The notes under the pieces: generated by a model
The model's database searches: none
What the model was told of the DNA's origin: nothing
Seen by the model: only the letters and a program-made list of their open reading frames with translations
Made by a program: the position numbers and the translations under genes
Shown here: piece after piece, positions 12,640 to 43,177 of the stretch
Layout of the letters: every line of letters starts with the position of its first letter
Position numbering within the stretch: the first letter of the stretch is position 1
Assembly (NCBI GenBank): GCA_946902875.1
Contig: OX336344.1
Span: 23,767,791-23,831,790 of the forward strand
DNA: 64,000 nucleotides
Reading direction: 5' to 3'
Source of the DNA: Nematopogon swammerdamellus
Lineage: Eukaryota; Arthropoda; Insecta; Lepidoptera; Adelidae

Positions 12640-12763
12640 GCAGCTGTAGCTGTAGCTGTAGCTGTAGCTGTAGCTGTAGCTGTAGCTGTAGCTGTAGCTG
12701 TAGCTGTAGCTGTAGCTGTAGCTGTAGCTGTAGCTGTAGCTGTAGCTGTAGCTGTAGCTGTAG
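12640..12763. repeat. (AGCTGT)n hexanucleotide microsatellite
   Basis: About 20 uninterrupted copies of the six-base unit. It is open in several frames (Cys-Ser, Tyr-Ser or Thr-Ala dipeptide runs), which explains apparent small proteins here. Every unit creates an AGCT palindrome. The absence of interruptions suggests a young, length-variable locus. Confidence 0.95.
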
Positions 12764-15189: not shown

Positions 15190-15375
15190 GTGGCGTGGAT
15201 CAAGTCAGACTCGAAGGCGATCCTGGCCATCCACACGGCGATGGTGGCGCTCAACCCGCGCATCTCCGTCACCTACAACAACCACAACACGTGGCGGCTG
15301 CACGTGGCCAACGTGCAGGCCAACGACTCCGGCACCTACATGTGCCAGGTCAACACCGACCCCATGAAGAGCCAG
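15190..15375 (+). CDS. Ig1 second-half exon of a DIP/lachesin-like cell-adhesion gene
   Basis: This 186-bp exon (62 codons) follows an AG acceptor at 15188-15189 and ends before GTGAGT. It is phase 0 at both ends. It encodes strands C to G of an Ig V-type domain: VAWIKSDSKAILAIH (C and C' strands with the core Trp), NPRISVTYNNHNTW, DSGTYMCQVN (F-strand Tyr-x-Cys) and NTDPMKSQ. The VAW... start and the CQVNTDPMKSQ ending are hallmarks of insect DIP/lachesin-type proteins, neuronal surface receptors with three Ig domains, many of which bind Dpr proteins. The B-strand Cys would lie in an upstream exon that I did not find. Splicing to 17011 gives SQ|MGHLSVVIPPDI, the expected family junction. The subtype cannot be fixed by eye. 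The donor is followed by eight partial copies of this exon. Confidence 0.88.
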
Positions 15376-16623
15376 GTGAGTAGTCGCTACTCGCACGCGC
15401 CGACGCAGAACTCGCGTCTCTCCGTCACACATAGCGGACACAACAAGTGGCGGCTGCACGTGGCCAACGTGCAGGCCAACGACTCCGGCACCTACATGTG
15501 CCAGGTCAACACCGACCCCATGAAGAGCCAGGTGAGTAGTCGCTACTCGCACGCGCCGACGCAGAACTCGCGTCTCTCCGTCACACATAGCGGACACAAC
15601 AAGTGGCGGCTGCACGTGGCCAACGTGCAGGCCAACGACTCCGGCACCTACATGTGCCAGGTCAACACCGACCCCATGAAGAGCCAGGTGAGTAGTCGCT
15701 ACTCGCACGCGCCGACGCAGAACTCGCGTCTCTCCGTCACACAGAGCGGACACAACACGTGGCGGCTGTACGTGACCAACGTGCAGGCCAAAGACTCCGG
15801 CACCTACATGTGCCAGGTCAACACCGACCCCATGAAGAGCCAAGTGAGTAGTCGCTACTCGCACGCGCCGACGCAGAACTCGCGTCTCTCCGTCACACAG
15901 AGCGGGCACAACACGTGGCGGCTGCACGTGTACAACATGCAGCCCAAGGAATCCGACACTTACATGTGCCAGGTCAACACCGACCCCATGAAGAGCCAGG
16001 TGAGTAGTCGCTACTCGCACGCGCCGACGCAGAACTCGCGTCTCTCCGTCACACATAGCGGACACAACAAGTGGCGGCTGCACGTGGCCAACGTGCAGGC
16101 CAACGACTCCGGCACCTGCATGTGCCAGGTCAACACCGACCCCATGAAGCGCCAGGTGAGTAGTCGCTACTCGCACGCGCCGACGCAGAACTCCCGTCTC
16201 TCCGTCACACAGAGCGGACACAACACGTGGCGGCTGCACGTGGCCAACGTGCAGGCCAAAGACTCCGGCACCTACATGTGCCAGGTCAACACCGACCCCA
16301 TGAAGAGCCAAGTGAGTAGTCGCTACTCGCACGCGCCGACGCAGAACTCGCGTCTCTCCGTCACACAGAGCGGGCACAACACGTGGCGGCTGCACGTGGC
16401 CAACGTGCAGGCCAAAGACTCCGGCACCTACATGTGCCAGGTCAACACCGACCCCATGAAGAGCCAAGTGAGTAGTCGCTACTCGCACGCGCCGACGCAG
16501 AACTCGCGTCTCTCCGTCACACAGAGCGGGCACAACACGTGGCGGCTGCACGTGTACAACATGCAGCCCAAGGAATCCGGCACCTACATGTGCCAGGTCA
16601 ACACCGACCCCATGAAGAACCAG
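15376..16623 (+). repeat. Eightfold 156-bp tandem repeat of the Ig1 exon end, with splice-like spacers
   Basis: Each unit is a 33-bp spacer starting GTGAGT and ending GACGCAG, then 123 bp homologous to the last 41 codons of the exon at 15190-15375. Donor positions are 15376, 15532, 15688, 15844, 16000, 16156, 16312 and 16468, all 156 bp apart. The last copy ends at 16623 before GTTAGA. All copies are open and in frame, so translation without splicing would read through the array. Every copy keeps the F-strand Cys but lacks the B strand. Variable positions cluster at HSG/QSG, K/T before the Trp, and VANVQAN / VTNVQAK / VYNMQPKE. Unit 6 has TCMC instead of TYMC and KRQ instead of KSQ. Units 4, 7 and 8 have CAA rather than CAG before the donor. 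Whether any copy is spliced into mRNA is unknown. A 33-nt spacer is too short for a normal insect intron. Confidence 0.92.
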
Positions 16624-17010
16624 GTTAGATTTTTTTAAATGTATGTACATTCAAGTGAAACCATTTCCAATCACCACCTCTATTAGGAATACACAGCAAC
16701 ATAATATTATTTATGTTGGTTTGTCTGTAACGGGAACACTAGAAACTTTCATTCGGTATTGCCGTCTCTAGCTCCACTGAATCGCAGAATTTTCTGGAGG
16801 AAAAACACCCTCTGCCCTCTCGACCGATACTCCTTCCTGATCCATCTTCCGCTGATGACAACATTATCAGAGTTTCCGATAAACGATCGTTGCTCATATT
16901 TAACTTGAATGCTTAGCTCAGATACCTGCACTCAAACCCGACAGACAGTAGCAGCGGGGACGTGGGAGGTGTGTGCGCGGTGTGTGTGCAAGGCTTGCGC
17001 CGGGTTGCAG
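16624..17010 (+). other. Intron of the DIP/lachesin-like gene
   Basis: Lies between the end of the Ig array (GTTAGA) and the acceptor GGGTTGCAG before 17011. It is short for this family. A minus-strand open frame here (16749-16931) has no recognisable feature. Confidence 0.75.
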
Positions 17011-17200
17011 ATGGGGCACCTCTCCGTGGTGATCCCGCCCGACATCGTGGACAGCGTGGGCGAGGGCGCGGCGGCGCGCGAGGGCGGCAGCGTGCGGCTC
17101 TCGTGCGTCGCCACCGGCGTGCCGCCGCCGAGAGTCGTCTGGAAGCGCGACGGCGGACGCGTCATCGTGTTTCGGCACGACCTGGTCAGGGAGAAGAAAG
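17011..17200 (+). CDS. Ig1-Ig2 linker and Ig2 first-half exon of the DIP/lachesin-like gene
   Basis: A 190-bp exon between the acceptor TTGCAG and the donor GTGAGC, entering in phase 0 and leaving in phase 1. It reads MGHLSVVIPPDIVDSV (G strand of Ig1 and the conserved VIPPDI linker), EGGSVRLSCVATGVPPPRVV (B strand with its Cys) and VWKRDGG (C strand Trp), ending near LVREKK. The linker and the C-x(n)-W spacing are typical of Ig2 in DIP/lachesin proteins. The entry phase matches every donor of the upstream exon and its tandem copies. The next exon should carry the rest of Ig2 with its F-strand Cys; I could not find it before the window ends. Codons are strongly GC-rich, unlike the flanking introns. 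Confidence 0.88.
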
Positions 17201-33189: not shown

Positions 33190-33992
33190 ATAATAGAAAT
33201 CCGATATAAAAGTCACACGTGCCTCCTGGGTGGTGCCAAATGAACAGCAATCAGCGTGTGGGAGATCTTCGGATCGGCTGGGTTCGCCACCACACCCCGG
33301 GAGAAACAATTACACCGGCATAACAGTTCGCTGTGTTCCGGTGTACTTCCCGGGGACCCAGTAGCAGGTGGGGTTGGCTGTGGTGAGGAGTAGGCCAGTG
33401 ATCCCGACGCGGATTCGCTGTTCAGAGGTGACGCATCGACACGGTTGACAGGGAGACCCGGTTAAACGGTTATTCCGCTGGCCGCCCGCCGGGTAGTACA
33501 GGAGCCCAATCGCGTCTAACCAACGCGAGAGGCTGCCCCGGTCAACCGGCGCATAATCCCGGAGTGGTCCGTCGTGCCGGTTGGTGACCGGAGTAGGGGT
33601 TCCGGCGGCCACTTCCGGGGGGGACCGGGGGCCTTTCCGTCTTCCGTGTCGGCGCAACACTAACCTGAGTAGTAAGCGATGAAGCTAGGGTCCACGCTTT
33701 GCCCGTGAATCACCACAGCCACCCTTTCATGCTCTTTCCCTCCCTCTTACAAAAATCATGGCAGCGAAAAAAAAGGAAAAAAAGGTTCAATCAGCGGTGC
33801 ACACCCTTACACCACTATTTAGCGTTGACTAGACCAACGTGCGGGGGTTGCATACCAATTTGAATGCCGTCCATCACCACCTGGAGACGAAGAAGCCGGC
33901 CTTGCTTTTCCTGACGGAATCACAAATATATCGACCTGCACTACCCCGGCTACACCCTGGAAGAAGCCTTCCGGTCGCGAGCCGGGGTTTGC

Positions 33993-34796
33993 TTGTTTGT
34001 CAGGGCAGATATTTGCTGTCGTCGCCTGCGCTGCCTTGAGGACTCCGAGCTATCAGTACTTTGGGTCCACGAGGATCTGGGAACGGTCTCGCGGGTGTAC
34101 GCCTGTCTGTACAGGTCGCACTCTGGTGATGCAGAGACAGCTCGGTTATTTGAGTACCTGAGTGGAGCGGCAGACAAAGTCCAAGAGCGGTTCCCTACCG
34201 CGGATTTGGTTCTTCTTGGAGACTTCAATGCCCATCACGAGGCATGGCTAGGCTCCAGGAGAACTGACTTTGCGGGGAGAGCCGCCTACGACTTCGCCCT
34301 GACGCATGACCTGTCTCAACTGGTAGACCAGCCCACCAGGCTGCCAGATATAGACGGTCATGAACCCTCTCTGCTGGATCTTCTGCTGACAACGAACCCC
34401 ACTGGATATAAGGTCGCAGTGAGAGCCCCGCTGGGTTCCTCTGATCATTGTTTAGTGCGGTCCACGGTGCCATCTTCGCCTCCTCAGTCCCGTACTGGAG
34501 GAACGCGTCGAATTTGGCACTACGCGTCAGCAGATTGGGATGGGATGCGAGAACACTTCGCATCCTACCCTTGGAGAGAGATCTGCTTCAGTTCGGGCGA
34601 TCCGTCGCAATGCGCTAATACCGTTGCCGAGGTGGTTCTGGGGGCAATGGAAATGTTTATTCGCAGCGCCTCTGTCTACCTAGGTGGTAAAAGCCAACCA
34701 TGGGACAGCCGCGACTGTGCTGATGCTGTCGCAGCTAAATGCGCAGCTTATCGGGCATGGTCGCGCGCTCGTGCCGGACGTGATCCGAACGCATCC
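33993..34796 (+). pseudogene. LINE-A endonuclease (EEP-type) domain, frameshifted
   Basis: 268 codons of apurinic-endonuclease-like sequence. The GDFNAHH motif is at residues 76-82, LLDLLLTTNP is near 130, and SSDHCLV near 150 carries the catalytic Asp-His pair typical of this fold. The N-terminal part continues upstream in another frame from 33839 (GLHTNLNAVHHHLETKKPAL). The frame stops at 34797-34799, after which LKKEYNRLSRSC-like sequence carries on in a degraded state. Confidence 0.88.
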
Positions 34797-35111
34797 TAAC
34801 TGAAGAAGGAATACAACCGCCTCTCCAGATCCTGCAAAAAGGTTATTGCCAGGGCCAAATTTGACCACATCGGCAGAATCGGCGATAGACTGAACCAGCA
34901 CCCAACTGGGAGCCGTGAGTTCTGGTCTCTCGCTAAATATGTCGAGTCAAATTTCTGCCGCTCCTCTCTTCCACCTCTGCAGTGTCCTGGAGGCTCACTT
35001 GTCCACTCCGCAAAGAAGAAAGCCGACTTACTGGTATCTCTCTTTGCGGGGAACTCCAACCTGGACGATGGGGGTGCCACTCCCCCATCCATACCTAGGT
35101 GTGAGAACTCC

Positions 35112-35555
35112 ATGTCGGAAGTGCAGTTTCGACAACGGACTGTACGGGCGGAACTTCTCTCCCTAGACGTCAGGAAGGCGAGTGGGCCGGATAGGATTCC
35201 TGCATTGGTGTTAAAAAGGTGTGCTCCCGAGCTGGCCCCAGTGCTGACGCGCCTATTCCGTCTCTCCTACTCCAATTGCCGTGTGCCGGCGGCCTGGAAA
35301 TCTGCGTTTTTGCAAGCGGTCCCTAAAAAGGGTGACCGCTCAAACCCGTCAAACTACCGACCTATAGCGATTACCTCCCTTTTCTGTAAGGTGATGGAGC
35401 GCATTATCAATACGCAGCTCATGAAGTACCTGGAGACGAATGACCTCATCAGCGATCGGCAATACGGCTTCCGGCCAAAACGATCTGCTGGTGATCTCCT
35501 AGCGTACGTCACTCACCTTTGGGGGGAATCGCTTGACGGTCATGGTGAATTGATG
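35112..35555 (+). pseudogene. LINE-A reverse transcriptase, N-terminal part
   Basis: Contains the typical early RT blocks: KASGPDRIPALVLKRC, VPKKGDRSNPSNYRPIAITS and ISDRQYGFRPKRSAGDLLA. The frame is interrupted just after WGESLDGHGE by family H sequence. Confidence 0.9.
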
Positions 35556-35908
35556 CTACCTATTTTAATTTTGAATTTTAATTTATTTTAATTTATTTTA
35601 ATTTTATTTTAATTTTATATTTTTTTATATTGACATAATTGAATTTTTAACCTTTAACAATTCTATTGATGCGAAGTATTTTAATTTAGCTCTAGTTTTA
35701 ATTGCCTTTCATGCACAAAACAGTTTTTTTTTCTCTGTATTCTTATAATTTTTAGTTATGTACCTATATTATTGCTAATTATTAGTCCCTTACCATGGCT
35801 AGACCCAGACAGTTTCAATTGTAAATTTGGTAAACTAAAATGTGACGAACTCAAGTGTACCGATGGTACCTAAGATGGAAATGAATAAATGAAAAATGAA
35901 ATGAAAAA
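35556..35908 (+). repeat. Family H insertion nested in the LINE-A reverse transcriptase
   Basis: AT-rich sequence starting in ATTTTAATTTTGAATTTTAA repeats. It contains GATGCGAAGTATTTTAAT, CCATGGCTAGACCCAGACAG, GACGAACTCAAGTGTACCGA and an end rich in AATGAAAAATGAAATG. It matches 12061-12382 in order. The RT protein similarity resumes immediately afterwards (LAIGLDIAKAFDRLWH), so this is an insertion. Any target-site duplication is only a few bases. Confidence 0.85.
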
Positions 35909-36838
35909 TACTTGGCAATTGGCCTTGATATTGCCAAGGCATTTGATCGGCTTTGGCACAAGTCGCTCTTGGGCAAATTGCCGGCTTACGGACTTCCTTC
36001 TGGCCTCTGTGACTGGGTCGCCGACTTCCTACATGGGCGTAGCATTCAGGTCCTAGTGGACGGTTGCTCGTCGGACGCCATGTCAGTGAACGCCGGCGTA
36101 CCACAAGGATCTGTGTTGTCACCCACGCTGTTTCTTCTGCATATCAATGATATGCTGTCTCTGGGCAACATACATTGTTATGCGGATGACAGTACGGCAC
36201 ACGGATCCTACACCAGTCACCCTTCAGCCAGTCGGGATATTGTGGATGAGAAGAGGCGAAGACTTGTGTCTGAGCTCGAACACACACTCGGCTCTATTTC
36301 CGAATGGGGCCGTAGCAATTTGGTCGAGTTCAACGCTTCCAAGACACAAGTTTGCGCGTTAAGTGCGAAGAGAGCGGCGTTCACACCGGCTCCTTCATTC
36401 CAAGGCACGTCGCTTAAATTAAGCGAACACCTCGGGGTCCTCGGAGTCGAACTGTCGCACGACTTGAACTTTCGTCGCCATATCGAGGGGAAGGCCAAGC
36501 TGGCTTCTAAAAAGCTGGGCGTACTCAATAAGGTGCGACGGTACTTCACGCCGGACCAAAGGCTGCTTTTGTATAAATCGCAGATCAGGTCCTGCTTGGA
36601 GTACTGCTCGCACCTGTGGGATGGCTCTGCCAAATACCAGCTTGCGCCTCTGGACTCGATCCAGCGTCGAGCCGTGCGACTAGTGGGTGACCCCGCAGTG
36701 TCCCGCGATCTAAAACCACTGCAACACCGTAGGGATGTCGGCTCCCTAAGTGTGTTCTATCGCTTATTCCATGGGGAGTACTCGGAGGAGCTGTTTAACG
36801 CAATCCCGCCGTCCCCTTTCCATCTCCGCACCACATGA
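35909..36838 (+). pseudogene. LINE-A reverse transcriptase, catalytic and C-terminal part
   Basis: Starts within LDIAKAFDRLWHKSLL (RT motif with catalytic Asp), then GVPQGSVLSPTLFLLHINDM and the catalytic YADD at 36179-36190. The thumb region and SCLEYCSHLWDG, LDSIQRRAVRL and FYRLFHGEYSEEL follow. A stop at 36836 reflects a frame break; the typical end (LHPYTLDLPRMRTNRFCRS, LWNALPAHIFPP) continues from about 36842 in another frame. Confidence 0.9.
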
Positions 36839-37569: not shown

Positions 37570-38345
37570 GAAGCTAGTCCGACGAATCCCAACGCTGCTC
37601 AGAAGGAGTCCAACATTTCCCTGTGTTCCCCCGACGCCATCCAGACGCAGTCCGACATCTACGTGAGCTCGGAAGCTAGTCCGACGAATCCCGAAGCTGC
37701 TCAGAAGGAGTCCAACATTGCCCTGCGTTCCCACGACGCCATTCAGACGGAGTCCGACATCTAAGTGAGCTCGGAAGCTAGTCCGACGAATCCCGACGCT
37801 GCTAAGAAAGAGCCCGACACTGCCCTGGGGTTCCCCGACACAATACAGACGGAGCCCGACATCCAAGTAAGCCTTAAAGCTAGTCCGACGAATCCCGACG
37901 CTGCTCAGAAGGAGTCCGACACTGCCCTGCGTTCCCCCGACGCCACCCAGACGCAGTCCGACATCTAAGCGAGCTCTGAAACCAGTCCGACGAATCCCGA
38001 CGCTGCTCAGAAGGAGTCCGACACTGCCCTGCGTTCCCCCGACGCCATCCAGACGCAGTCCGACATCTAAGCGAGCTCCGAAACCAGCCCGACGAATTCC
38101 GACGCGGCTCAGAAGGAGTCCGACACTGCCCCTGCGTTCCCCCGACGCCATCCAGACGCGGTCTGACATCTAAGCGAGCCTCGAAGCCAGTCTGACGAAT
38201 CCCGACGCAGCTCGGAAGGAGCCCGACACTGCCCAACGTCCCCCGACGCCATCCCGATGGAGCCCGATACTGCCCTGCGTTCCCCGACGCCATCCAGATG
38301 GAGCCCGACACCTAAGCGAATTTCCGAAGTCAGCCAGACGGATCC
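37570..38345. repeat. 102-bp minisatellite, ~7.5 copies
   Basis: Unit starts fall at 37570, 37672, 37774, 37876, 37978, 38080 and 38183, followed by a longer irregular last copy. Each unit has AGCTAGTCCGACGAATCCCG or AAACCAGTCC..., GCTGCTCAGAAGGAGTCC, CCCTGCGTTCCCCCGACGCC and CAGACGCAGTCCGACATCTA. Since 102 is 34 codons, the minus strand stays open for 202 codons. The plus strand has an in-frame TAA at most unit ends. Probably noncoding. Confidence 0.9.
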
Positions 38346-38639: not shown

Positions 38640-40208
38640 CATTCGGAAATAGACCGAAGCGTTTGTTTGAGATCAGACAAAAGTCTTCGCCTCTTCATCC
38701 ACAACATCCCGTCTGACTGAAGGGTCACTGGTATAGGATCCATGTGCTGTACTGTCATCCGCATAACAATTTATGTTGCCGAGTGGCAGCATGTCATTGA
38801 TATGCAGAAGAAACAGTGTTGGTGACAAGACAACACAGATCCCTGCGGTACGCCGGCATTCACTGACAGGGCGTCCGAAGAGCAACCGTCCACTAGGACC
38901 TGAATGCTACGCCCATGTAGGAAGTTGGCGACCCAGTCGCAGAGGCCAGAAGGAAGTCCGTACGACGGAAGCTAGCCCAGAAGCGATTTGTGCCAAACCC
39001 ATTCGAATGCCTTGGCAATATCGAGACCAATTCACACCGTTTCAGCACCAATGCAGGAATCATATCCGGCCCACTCGCCTTCCTGGTGTCTAGGGAGATA
39101 AGCTCCGCCCGCACAGTTCGTTGTCGGAACTGTACTTCCGGCATGGAGTTCTCACACCTAGTTATGGATGGGGGGATGGCACCCCATCGTCCAGGGTGGA
39201 GTTCTACGCAAAGAGAGCACTTACATTTGCGGAGTGGGCAAGTGAGCCCCCAGGACACTGTAGAGGTGGAAGGGAGGAGCGGTAGAAAATCGATACGACA
39301 GATTTGGCGAGAGACCAAAACTCACGGCTCCCAGTTGGGTGCTGGTTCAGCCTATCACCAACTCTGCCGATATGCTCGAATTTGGCCCTGACGATAGCCG
39401 TCTTGCAGGATCTGGAGAGGCGGTTGTATTCTTTCTTCAGTTCGGATACATTAGGATCGCGTCTGGTACGAGCGCACGACCATGCACGATAAGCTGCGCC
39501 ATTAGCTGCGACAGCTTCACCACAGTCGCGGCTGTACCAGGCCTGGCTTTTACCACCGAGGCGCACGAGGGCGCTGGGAATGAACATCTCCATTCCCCCC
39601 AGAACCACCTCGGCTACGGCATTGGCGCATTCTGCCGGAATGCGCCAATGCCGTAGCCAAGGTGTAGATCATCCGAGGTGTAGATCATCCGAACTGAAGC
39701 ATAGCTCTCTCCATGGGTAGGATGTGATGTATTCTCGCATCCCGTCCCAATCCGCTGACACGTAGTGCCAAATTGGACGCATTTCTCCAGTACGAGACTA
39801 AGGAGGCAAAAATGGCACCGTAGACCCCACTAAACAGTGGTCAGAGAAGCCAAGAGGAGTGCTCACTGTGACTTTGTATCCAGCAGGGTTCGTCGTCAGC
39901 AGAAGATCCAGCAGAGAGGGTGCATGACCGTCCATGTCTGGCGCTTTGGTAGGTTGGTCTATCAGTTGAGGCAAGTCATGCGTCAGGGAGAAGTCGTAGG
40001 CGGCTCTCCCCTCGAAGTCAGTTCTCCCGGAGCCCAGCCACTCCTCGTGATGGGCATTAAAATCCCCAAGCAGAACCATATCCGCGGATATATATATATA
40101 TAGGGAAACTACATGCACTTCATCTGCCGCTCTACTCAAGTGCTCGAACAATCGAGCTGTCCCCGCGTCGTCTGAGTGCGACCTGTAGATACTTACAGGC
40201 GGACACAC
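38640..40208 (-). mobile_element. LINE-A second copy, minus strand, truncated
   Basis: Running from 40208 down to 38640: endonuclease end (ADMVLLGDFNAHHEEWLGSG, LLDLLLTTNPAGY, FSDHCLVGS), then VVLGGMEMFIPSALVRLGGK, LKKEYNRLSRSCKTAIVRAK and SLDTRKASGPDMIPALVLKR. RT motifs include LFLLHINDMLPLGNINCYAD near 38770-38830. The RT block between KASGPD and FLHGRS is deleted, and the 3' end is missing. Several frame breaks. It faces the copy at 33.2-37.1 kb. Confidence 0.88.
39603..39662. repeat. Local inverted duplication inside the LINE-A minus copy
   Basis: ACCTCGGCTACGGCATTGGC…GCATT is followed after seven bases by its reverse complement with one mismatch (25-bp arms). The corresponding place in the 33-37 kb copy has only one arm. 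The 19-bp word GAGGTGTAGATCATCCGA is also partly repeated directly afterwards (39660-39690). Confidence 0.85.
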
Positions 40209-40224
40209 GCGACTCCGTCCCCAA

Positions 40225-40385
40225 GTGAACCGATTGTGATGATTCTTTTTTTATTTGAAAGCTGGTGCTTTCCGCGTGGTCCCATTTCAATTTCATCAAG
40301 ATCGGATTGGAAAGCGAGGCGGATTCGCGAAGCCAAAAGCCGAGCGATTCCGCCGAGTACATTAATAGCAAAAAATTACTAAAAA
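40225..40385. repeat. Dispersed repeat J fragment
   Basis: TTTGAAAGCTGGTGCTTTCC, GTGGTCCCATTTCAATTTCA and TCAAGATCGGATTGG form a sequence common in moth genomes (general impression). No second copy was seen in this window. Confidence 0.4.
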
Positions 40386-41757: not shown

Positions 41758-42659
41758 ACGTCGAGTGGAAATGCTTTATTGATTGGAGTATAATGCTCTG
41801 TGGCAATTTACTTGCTTTTTTTATTGCTCTCTGGTTGATAGATGCTGGCTAGTGGTCGGAGCCCCAGGCGCAGGCGCAAGCAATACTTCATTTTAGATGT
41901 GCGTTCAATTATGTGACAATTCATAAATTTAATTGCAAATAATTCCATAACATTCTCTACCACTAAAATGAAAATACCGCAGCATAAAGGCGTATAATAT
42001 TGAGGAATCTGGACAAATTCACGACGCATGCACAAAATCATACAACTTGGAAGGCAAAATTTCTGAAATATTATTATGCAAGCTTTTGTGCAAGTGCGAC
42101 TGGATGTTTCACCTGGCGCCCGCCCCCGCCGCCCCCGCCGACCCCGCCGCGCCCCGCGTCGCCAAGCACCGCGACCACTGAACTATATATTACTGGAATG
42201 CTTTAGTTAGACGTACACTTTTTAGGCAAATTAGGTTTTCGCCATAATAGTGTAGTGGAACCAATGTTATTTATTTATTGGGAAACTTAACAGCTAACCT
42301 ATGAACTATTACATACACATTAAAGAAAAAATTACATAGCCAATAACAACGCTTCACGATTTACAAATTACAATATATAAGTACATATTACGTCCTGCTA
42401 TCTTAATAAAATAAGAAGAAAATAAAACCAAAATAAAATAAAACCAAATTAAACATATGTAGTACTTACACAAATGACAATCACAATAACTAATATTTTC
42501 ACAAAGCCGCTCTGAACAACCCACGACGGCCTCGTGTGCATTAACTGACATGGTTGGTTGGCTCCCGGGACCGGACGCTCACTACCTTCTATCTGCATCA
42601 AAATATCCATAATTACATCCTCACACAAATATGCTGTAAGTTAGTATGGTACTGCCATT
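41758..42659. other. Noncoding sequence with a possible LINE tail
   Basis: 42265-42560 begins TTATTTATTTATTGGGAAAC and looks like a reverse-oriented 3' tail of an unrelated LINE. A CCCGCCCCCGCC island lies at 42117-42165. No gene supported. Confidence 0.45.
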
Positions 42660-43177
42660 CCAGCCAGCTGGTGTACTAGACAGAGTTCAGTGAGCGCCGC
42701 GCTGTACACACAGCTCACTAGTAGGAACACATTCCAGCCAGCTGGTGTACTAGATAGAGTTCAGTGAGCGCCGCGCTGTACACACAGCTCGCTAGTAGGA
42801 ACACATTCCAGCCAGCTGGTGTACTAGATAGAGTTCAGTGAGCGCCGCGCTGTACACACAGCTCGCTAGTAGGAACACATTCCAGCCAGCTGGTGTACTA
42901 GATAGAGTTCAGTGAGCGCCGCGCTGTACACACAGCTCGCTAGTAGGAACACATTCCAGCCAGCTGGTGTACTAGATAGAGTTCAGTGAGCGCCGCGCTG
43001 TACACACAGCTCGCTAGTAGGAACACATTCCAGCCAGCTGGTGTACTAGATAGAGTTCAGTGAGCGCCGCGCTGTACACACATCTCGCTAGTAGGAACAC
43101 ATTCCAGCCAGCTGGTGTACTAGATAGAGTTCAGTGAGCGCCGCGCTGTACACACAGCTCTCTAGTAGGAACACATT
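42660..43177. repeat. Seven-copy 74-bp tandem array
   Basis: Units begin at 42660, 42734, 42808, 42882, 42956, 43030 and 43104, each exactly 74 bp, ending at 43177. They are nearly identical; differences are ACAGAG/ATAGAG in unit 1, CTCACT/CTCGCT, CATCTC in unit 6 and CTCTCT in the last. Each unit contains the E-box CAGCTG (CCAGCCAGCTGGTG), GAGCGCCGCGCTG (near-palindromic) and ACACACAGCTCGCTAGTAGG. All three frames are interrupted, so it is noncoding. Confidence 0.95.

Follow-up and report, generated by a model that had tools for sequence, protein, structure and literature searches.

The window, by which we mean the whole 64,000-bp stretch of DNA analysed (C12:23767791-23831790), holds part of a gene here called gene A; searches covered the genome at 699 Mb in 39 contigs. 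Six exons of gene A were found on the + strand (C12:23762269-23858757), with canonical splice sites and, once the array described below is left out, a single frame of 307 residues. The signal-peptide exon and the last exon of gene A were not found. Pfam marks three Ig stretches, and residues 10-306 align with Drosophila DIP-alpha (6efy; E 2.7e-96), the best solved match. The twelve best matches listed are lepidopteran lachesin-like proteins with 73-78% identity over 305-312 residues, and the top protein match of exon Ig1b reaches 93.5% among the 120 best matches listed. Based on three Ig domains aligned lengthwise with solved DIPs, we assign gene A to the DIP (Dpr-interacting protein) family, in keeping with the DIP/lachesin type named in the first-pass annotation.

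The native exon Ig1b (62 codons, 15190-15375 of the window) is preceded by GCGGCGGCAG and ends in the donor CAG/GTGAGT (the slash marks the exon end). Eight extra units of exactly 156 bp follow, repeated head to tail at one period outward from the 3' edge of the Ig1 exon, giving nine copies in total, the last ending at 16623. Spacer starts are evenly set (15376, 15532, 15688, 15844, 16000, 16156, 16312 and 16468) and TRF describes the array as 156 bp x 8.6 with 95% matches and 0% indels, which agrees with the original count of nine copies without length change. The reading frame is open through all 478 codons (15190-16623), free of stops and of frame loss as had been noted at the outset. A donor is likewise present in every copy: agreement with the consensus is 8-9 of 9 positions in copies 1-8, where donors 2-8 are about equal in strength to the first, and 7 of 9 in copy 9 (CAG/GTTAGA). 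The exon at 17011-17200 joins the exon at 15190-15375 in phase 0, which bears out the claim of phase-0 donors facing a phase-0 acceptor. The features, in window coordinates, are as follows.

15190..15375, +: native exon Ig1b of DIP-type gene A, 62 codons with phase 0 at both ends; copy 1 is formed by its final 123 bp
15376..15531, +: unit 2; begins with donor GTGAGT and a short intron stub, exon-like over 15409-15531
15532..15687, +: unit 3, with the same sequence as unit 2; exon-like over 15565-15687
15688..15843, +: unit 4; exon-like over 15721-15843
15844..15999, +: unit 5; exon-like over 15877-15999; shows the least conversion to exon A (1/6 diagnostic positions)
16000..16155, +: unit 6; exon-like over 16033-16155; changes Tyr to Cys and Ser to Arg
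16156..16311, +: unit 7; exon-like over 16189-16311
16312..16467, +: unit 8; exon-like over 16345-16467
16468..16623, +: unit 9; exon-like over 16501-16623, then the weaker donor GTTAGA at 16624
15376..17010, +: predicted intron, assuming use of the first donor; the array accounts for 1248 of its 1635 bp
17011..17200, +: exon Ig2a, the next one in gene A; 190 bp, with its acceptor in phase 0 and its donor in phase 1

A linked paralogue with a second 156-bp array

Gene B lies on the opposite strand (C12:23990404 down to 23892829), 190 kb from the gene A array, and both genes fall within the last 0.35 Mb of C12. Seven exons of gene B were found, which likewise join in one frame without arrays; the gene matches other moth lachesins, with 55% along its length to a Bombyx protein (P0121). 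GC3 is 0.94 in gene A and 0.90 in gene B. The exon end MKSQ/MGHL is common to both genes, and the moth lachesins examined read MKSQMGHL, MKSQMGYL or MMSQMGHL with no insert at the Ig1b junction. The intron position at the end of Ig1b is common to A and B and has been kept; the array lengthens the intron. A linked pair of A-type and B-type genes is probably present also in Bombyx, Manduca and Colias, and is probably old. In a tree of 28 rows, gene A groups with the A-types and gene B with the B-types, and Plutella P0028, labelled B-type beforehand, fell among the A-types. Both genes are placed outside the sampled moth sequences, a weak placement because both evolve fast.

In gene B, nine more units with a period of 156 bp come after exon Ig1b. 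Unit 8 contains two stop codons, and the tenth unit (the ninth extra one, at about C12:23972290) is interrupted by unrelated sequence that may be a retroelement. Within their first 75 positions, the A units 2-9 depart from the B-unit consensus only at 39, 57, 63 and 71, and all 33 spacer positions are identical to that consensus. The differences between the A copies and their local exon lie mainly in this first half, where the copies match the paralogue's array. Beyond position 75, exon A differs from the B consensus at six positions, and the exon A base is found at 6/6 of them in units 2, 3 and 6, at 5/6 in units 7 and 8, at 3/6 in unit 4, at 2/6 in unit 9 and at 1/6 in unit 5. Given that the native Ig1b exons of A and B differ at 26 of 186 positions, the shared 156-bp unit is younger than the genes. 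The A array is a B-type unit partly converted to the local exon, and it therefore probably arrived by exchange. The simplest account is probably a transfer from B followed by conversion by exon A, with the direction of transfer read from one genome.

The paralogue also clarifies the 33-bp spacer, which had been described as an intron-like GT...AG element. The spacer is present, but comparison with the paralogue assigns about 20 of its 33 bp to exon and about 13 bp to intron. The CAG at its end corresponds to a Gln codon within the paralogue's exon, and since ACGCAGAAC is internal coding sequence (T-Q-N) in B's exon, the GT...AG look is accidental. In the paralogue's version, the repeat unit consists of about 143 bp of exon, the donor and about 13 bp of intron. 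Each array copy carries 123-143 of the 186 exon bases. The copies had also been said to lack the B strand. They do, but so does the native Ig1b exon, as the B strand sits on the preceding exon in our exon models.

Changes among the copies look neutral, with no sign of selection on protein. The 19 changes in A units 2-9 comprise 5 synonymous, 14 nonsynonymous and 0 stop changes (simulated neutral mean, 5.0 synonymous), and the 23 changes in B units 2-9 comprise 9 synonymous, 12 nonsynonymous and 2 stop changes (neutral mean, 7.3 synonymous). In simulation, the chance of zero stops given 19 changes is 0.47, and the open frame of the A array is therefore unremarkable.

Tandem copies at the exon edges of both genes

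Running TRF on 320 kb (non-overlapping arrays, period at least 40, at least 2.5 copies) returned 33 arrays, of which 12 come from two dispersed repeat families. Seven arrays overlap one of the 13 exons and 26 touch none. Random placement predicts 1.25 overlaps (at least 7 in 3 of 20,000 trials) and GC-matched seeds predict 0.61 (none of 200,000 draws reached 7), an about elevenfold excess over the GC-matched figure, in a region that was picked because of the flagged array and in which the two 156-bp arrays are not independent. When the flagged array and its twin are omitted, extra copies are found at 6 of 11 exons. The other coding-like array in the 320 kb, at C12:23882300, sits in what we take to be a retroelement frame.

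Altogether, 8 of the 13 coding exons found in A and B carry tandem copies of their own edge, which cross a splice site or stop codon and all extend outward. The amplified edges are on the donor side in five cases, on the acceptor side in two and at a stop codon in one, which are small numbers (n = 8).

A Ig1b: 156-bp array
A Ig2b: single extra copy rather than an array; open and in frame
A Ig3b: 108-bp array; a 1-bp insertion puts the copies out of frame
B Ig1a: 124-bp array, acceptor side; out of frame
B Ig1b: 156-bp array; two stops
B Ig2a (C12:23957423-23959050): 73 bp x 22, comprising the last 36 bp of exon, donor AAG/GTACGT and 37 bp of intron; leaves the frame
B Ig2b: 153-bp array, acceptor side; read-through meets a stop
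B last exon: 196-bp array crossing the stop codon

No extra edge copies were found at the other five of the 13 exons (A Ig1a, A Ig2a, A Ig3a, B Ig3a and B Ig3b); the intron of B Ig3b starts with another repeat.

Similar arrays in other genes and other insects

Searching the genome with a predicted DIP of Mythimna separata (described below) gave 72 matches; by our grouping they represent about fourteen DIP-like loci plus some further Ig genes. Two further DIP loci carry arrays. The first, on C8 at 5.47 of 26.1 Mb, is an array of 148 bp x 13, out of frame and with two TAG per copy. The second (C20:21226700-21227800) repeats a whole Ig3a exon with a 35-bp GT...AG stub (174 bp x 3.9) and contains an in-frame TGA, so that each read-through hits a stop. 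The same C20 gene shows its Ig1 segment twice within 0.42 kb, as judged from match positions only. In the protein search, no array was seen at the nearest own-genome relatives of the Mythimna protein outside A and B (C12, 12.93 and 13.29 Mb).

Profile searches were made for Ion_trans, Protein kinase and Phosphatase, in which the best 150 of 188, 129 of 580 and 79 of 79 candidates were scored. Regular spacing was judged by eye from the match tables of these best candidates and short edges are missed, so the rates by family are rough lower bounds. The sampling is uneven, with two clear ion-channel arrays, both on C30 (111 best-candidate rows), one kinase array (135 best-candidate rows) and none in 48 phosphatase matches. 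One C30 array, at 5.52 of 15.0 Mb, was read and consists of 176 bp x 5.1, with an exon end, the donor CAG/GTTTGT and a stub; the gene presumably encodes a voltage-gated calcium channel. Match positions only are available for the second (C30:5597483-5598428, an ion-channel segment at about 180-190 bp) and for the kinase array (C1:26365374-26366463, five rows at about 196 bp). Doubtful ion-channel pairs or triples were seen on C11, C30 and C34, the C11 case (C11:5935654-5936291) being a doubtful triple known from match positions only. Periods of 73, 124, 148, 176 and 196 bp, among the sister arrays of this locus and those on C8 and C30, are not multiples of three.

In Mythimna separata, the predicted DIP PYW07_016568 (P0001) contains six Ig1 exon-edge copies spaced 51 residues apart; GEYATS joins them at five points and would read as G/GTGAGT plus an intron stub. 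The protein resembles the A array in that a DIP Ig1 exon edge is repeated in tandem, but it is a different DIP gene in a different species and a gene prediction only. By score, no other array of the Mythimna kind stood out among the best 120 of 1891 or the best 120 of 1395 protein matches. A predicted DIP of Anopheles quadriannulatus (P0002) has one exon twice, apparently with an intron of about 50 nt retained between, possibly a duplicated exon pair or an annotation error. A predicted DIP of Heliothis virescens (P0172) has the stretch from the Ig1 end to Ig2 twice.

Origin and use of the arrays

We favour, with a probability of roughly 0.78, the reading that the Ig1b array is an exon-edge minisatellite, tolerated since splicing at the native site leaves the copies intronic. 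Its units run head to tail and cross the exon-intron boundary. Since repeats of this kind also occur at many exons of A and B and at some other genes, the array is probably silent intronic repeat sequence and probably does not serve to produce many proteins. Short tandem duplications would arise often at A and B and expand by unequal exchange. Those within an exon would harm the protein and be lost, while those crossing a boundary would survive because the outermost complete exon retains its own splice site or stop codon; in the case of Ig1b, splicing at the first donor, presumably the one used, would remove the array with the intron. The Ig1b array would have begun in gene B, been copied to A by exchange between the paralogous exons and later been partly overwritten by exon A, with copy number and open frame as by-products. 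Donor-side arrays (5/8) may have an advantage in that transcription reaches the native donor before the copies; acceptor-side arrays place the copies ahead.

The first-pass annotation had proposed that different donors are chosen, giving in-frame proteins longer by multiples of 52 residues. The in-frame potential is real, and given the open A frame and the strong donors 2-8, longer products from later donors are possible. The Mythimna model reads through a like array at 51-residue spacing, and the extra copy at A Ig2b is open and in frame. Purposeful use of these donors nevertheless seems to us quite unlikely, as does any isoform use of the A array. The copies look neutral and their lack of stops is expected by chance, the paralogue's array has two stops, the arrays at A Ig3b, B Ig1a, B Ig2a, C8 and C30 are out of frame, and those at B Ig2b, C8 and C20 read into stops; moreover, each copy would supply just the later Ig strands with one Cys, and the Mythimna entry is a gene prediction. 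A protein-diversity device was accordingly rejected as the main reading.

Dscam carries arrays of mutually exclusive exons in a neuronal Ig gene, and the use of one copy per transcript had been suggested here by analogy. In both cases a neuronal Ig gene contains similar Ig exon pieces in tandem, and the moth copies are of equal length, each ends in a donor and the spacer begins with GT and ends with AG. We give this reading practically no credence. Unlike Dscam exons, the copies are partial (the 3' part) and have no acceptor or real intron of their own, so that no copy is a complete exon with both splice sites. The 33 bp between copies are too short for an intron, the spacer AG lies in a Gln codon of the paralogue's native exon, and swapping the exon for one copy would remove its first 14-21 codons. 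It is also very improbable that a single real copy was expanded by the assembler, the outcome that had been named as fatal to the original claim. Units 2 and 3 are identical, as such an artefact would produce, but units 2-9 have 17 variable sites with changes private to single copies, the paralogue 190 kb away has its own array with other changes, and other exons and chromosomes have arrays built of different units.

A further alternative goes beyond slippage and tolerance and invokes a directed process at splice junctions or transcribed exon edges, for example nascent RNA-DNA loops or repair templated by unspliced RNA. The excess over the GC-matched expectation in the 320 kb exceeds what tolerance alone explains, the eight edges are split five, two and one between donors, acceptors and a stop codon, and arrays occur in an ion-channel gene and, by match positions only, in a kinase gene. 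Against it stand the unit that crosses a stop codon and no splice site, which fits tolerance better, the 26 of 33 regional arrays off these exons, the phosphatase matches without arrays and the small numbers per side. We consider such a process improbable. An outside chance, in our estimate, is that exon edges, and donors above all, are preferred sites of amplification, with seeding linked to transcription or splicing in several gene families and introns growing from their own exons.

Three generalisations were set aside. A subtelomeric effect alone was rejected on the positions of the C8 and C30 arrays within their contigs, and a DIP-only effect on the C30 ion-channel array and the C1 kinase rows. 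That arrays are a feature of every gene is unsupported by the phosphatase and kinase counts.

Comparison with known systems

In the Rogers model, introns are gained through duplication of an exonic segment with a proto-splice site. The moth arrays share with it a tandem duplication with splice signals in the copy; unlike in that model, A and B retain their common intron position and the array makes the intron longer. Drosophila cases of intron gain by a duplicated exonic segment have been described (PMC2891723). In human paralogues within segmental duplications, exon-intron boundaries have been reported to carry internal tandem repeats (De Grassi and Ciccarelli, 2009; PMC2812944). These too are minisatellites crossing exon-intron boundaries in paralogues, for which slippage or unequal exchange is named and splicing may change. 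The human repeats described there average 30 bp x 4, are variable, belong to recent duplicates and have RNA support, whereas the moth units measure 73-196 bp in up to 22 copies at 8/13 exons of two old paralogues and are known from DNA alone. In a potato RdRp gene, a tandem duplication likewise crosses an intron-exon boundary and the extra copy is partly intronic (PMC4974935); it is one duplication that made a new intron, whereas the moth arrays are multi-copy and create no new intron position.

Tandem duplication across an exon edge is already known (PMC2812944, PMC4974935); next to these cases, the density, recurrence, spread and exon-edge preference seen here are unusual. Among the titles and abstract openings listed from open-licence papers, no insect report of such exon-edge arrays was found. 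In the same open-licence set, a search for GC-biased conversion at chromosome ends in Lepidoptera listed three bird papers, and one for DIP splicing listed a single unrelated paper.

In every case the native exon is retained together with its splice site or stop codon. Should the pattern prove general, introns would lengthen from their own exons and a steady source of decoy splice sites would exist. Gene predictors, which may read arrays as protein (perhaps in Mythimna), would call for caution, and the arrays would offer a natural test of the cell's choice among many equal donors in series.

Other repeats in the window

Three other tandem arrays were observed in the window, at 37570-38254 (102 bp x 6.7), 42656-43177 (74 bp x 7.1) and 12642-12763 (AGCTGT x 20, perfect). 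Endonuclease-like and reverse-transcriptase frames with YADD occur at 33915-36838 (+) and 39204-40250 (-), partly repeated in reverse, and are pieces of a non-LTR retrotransposon.
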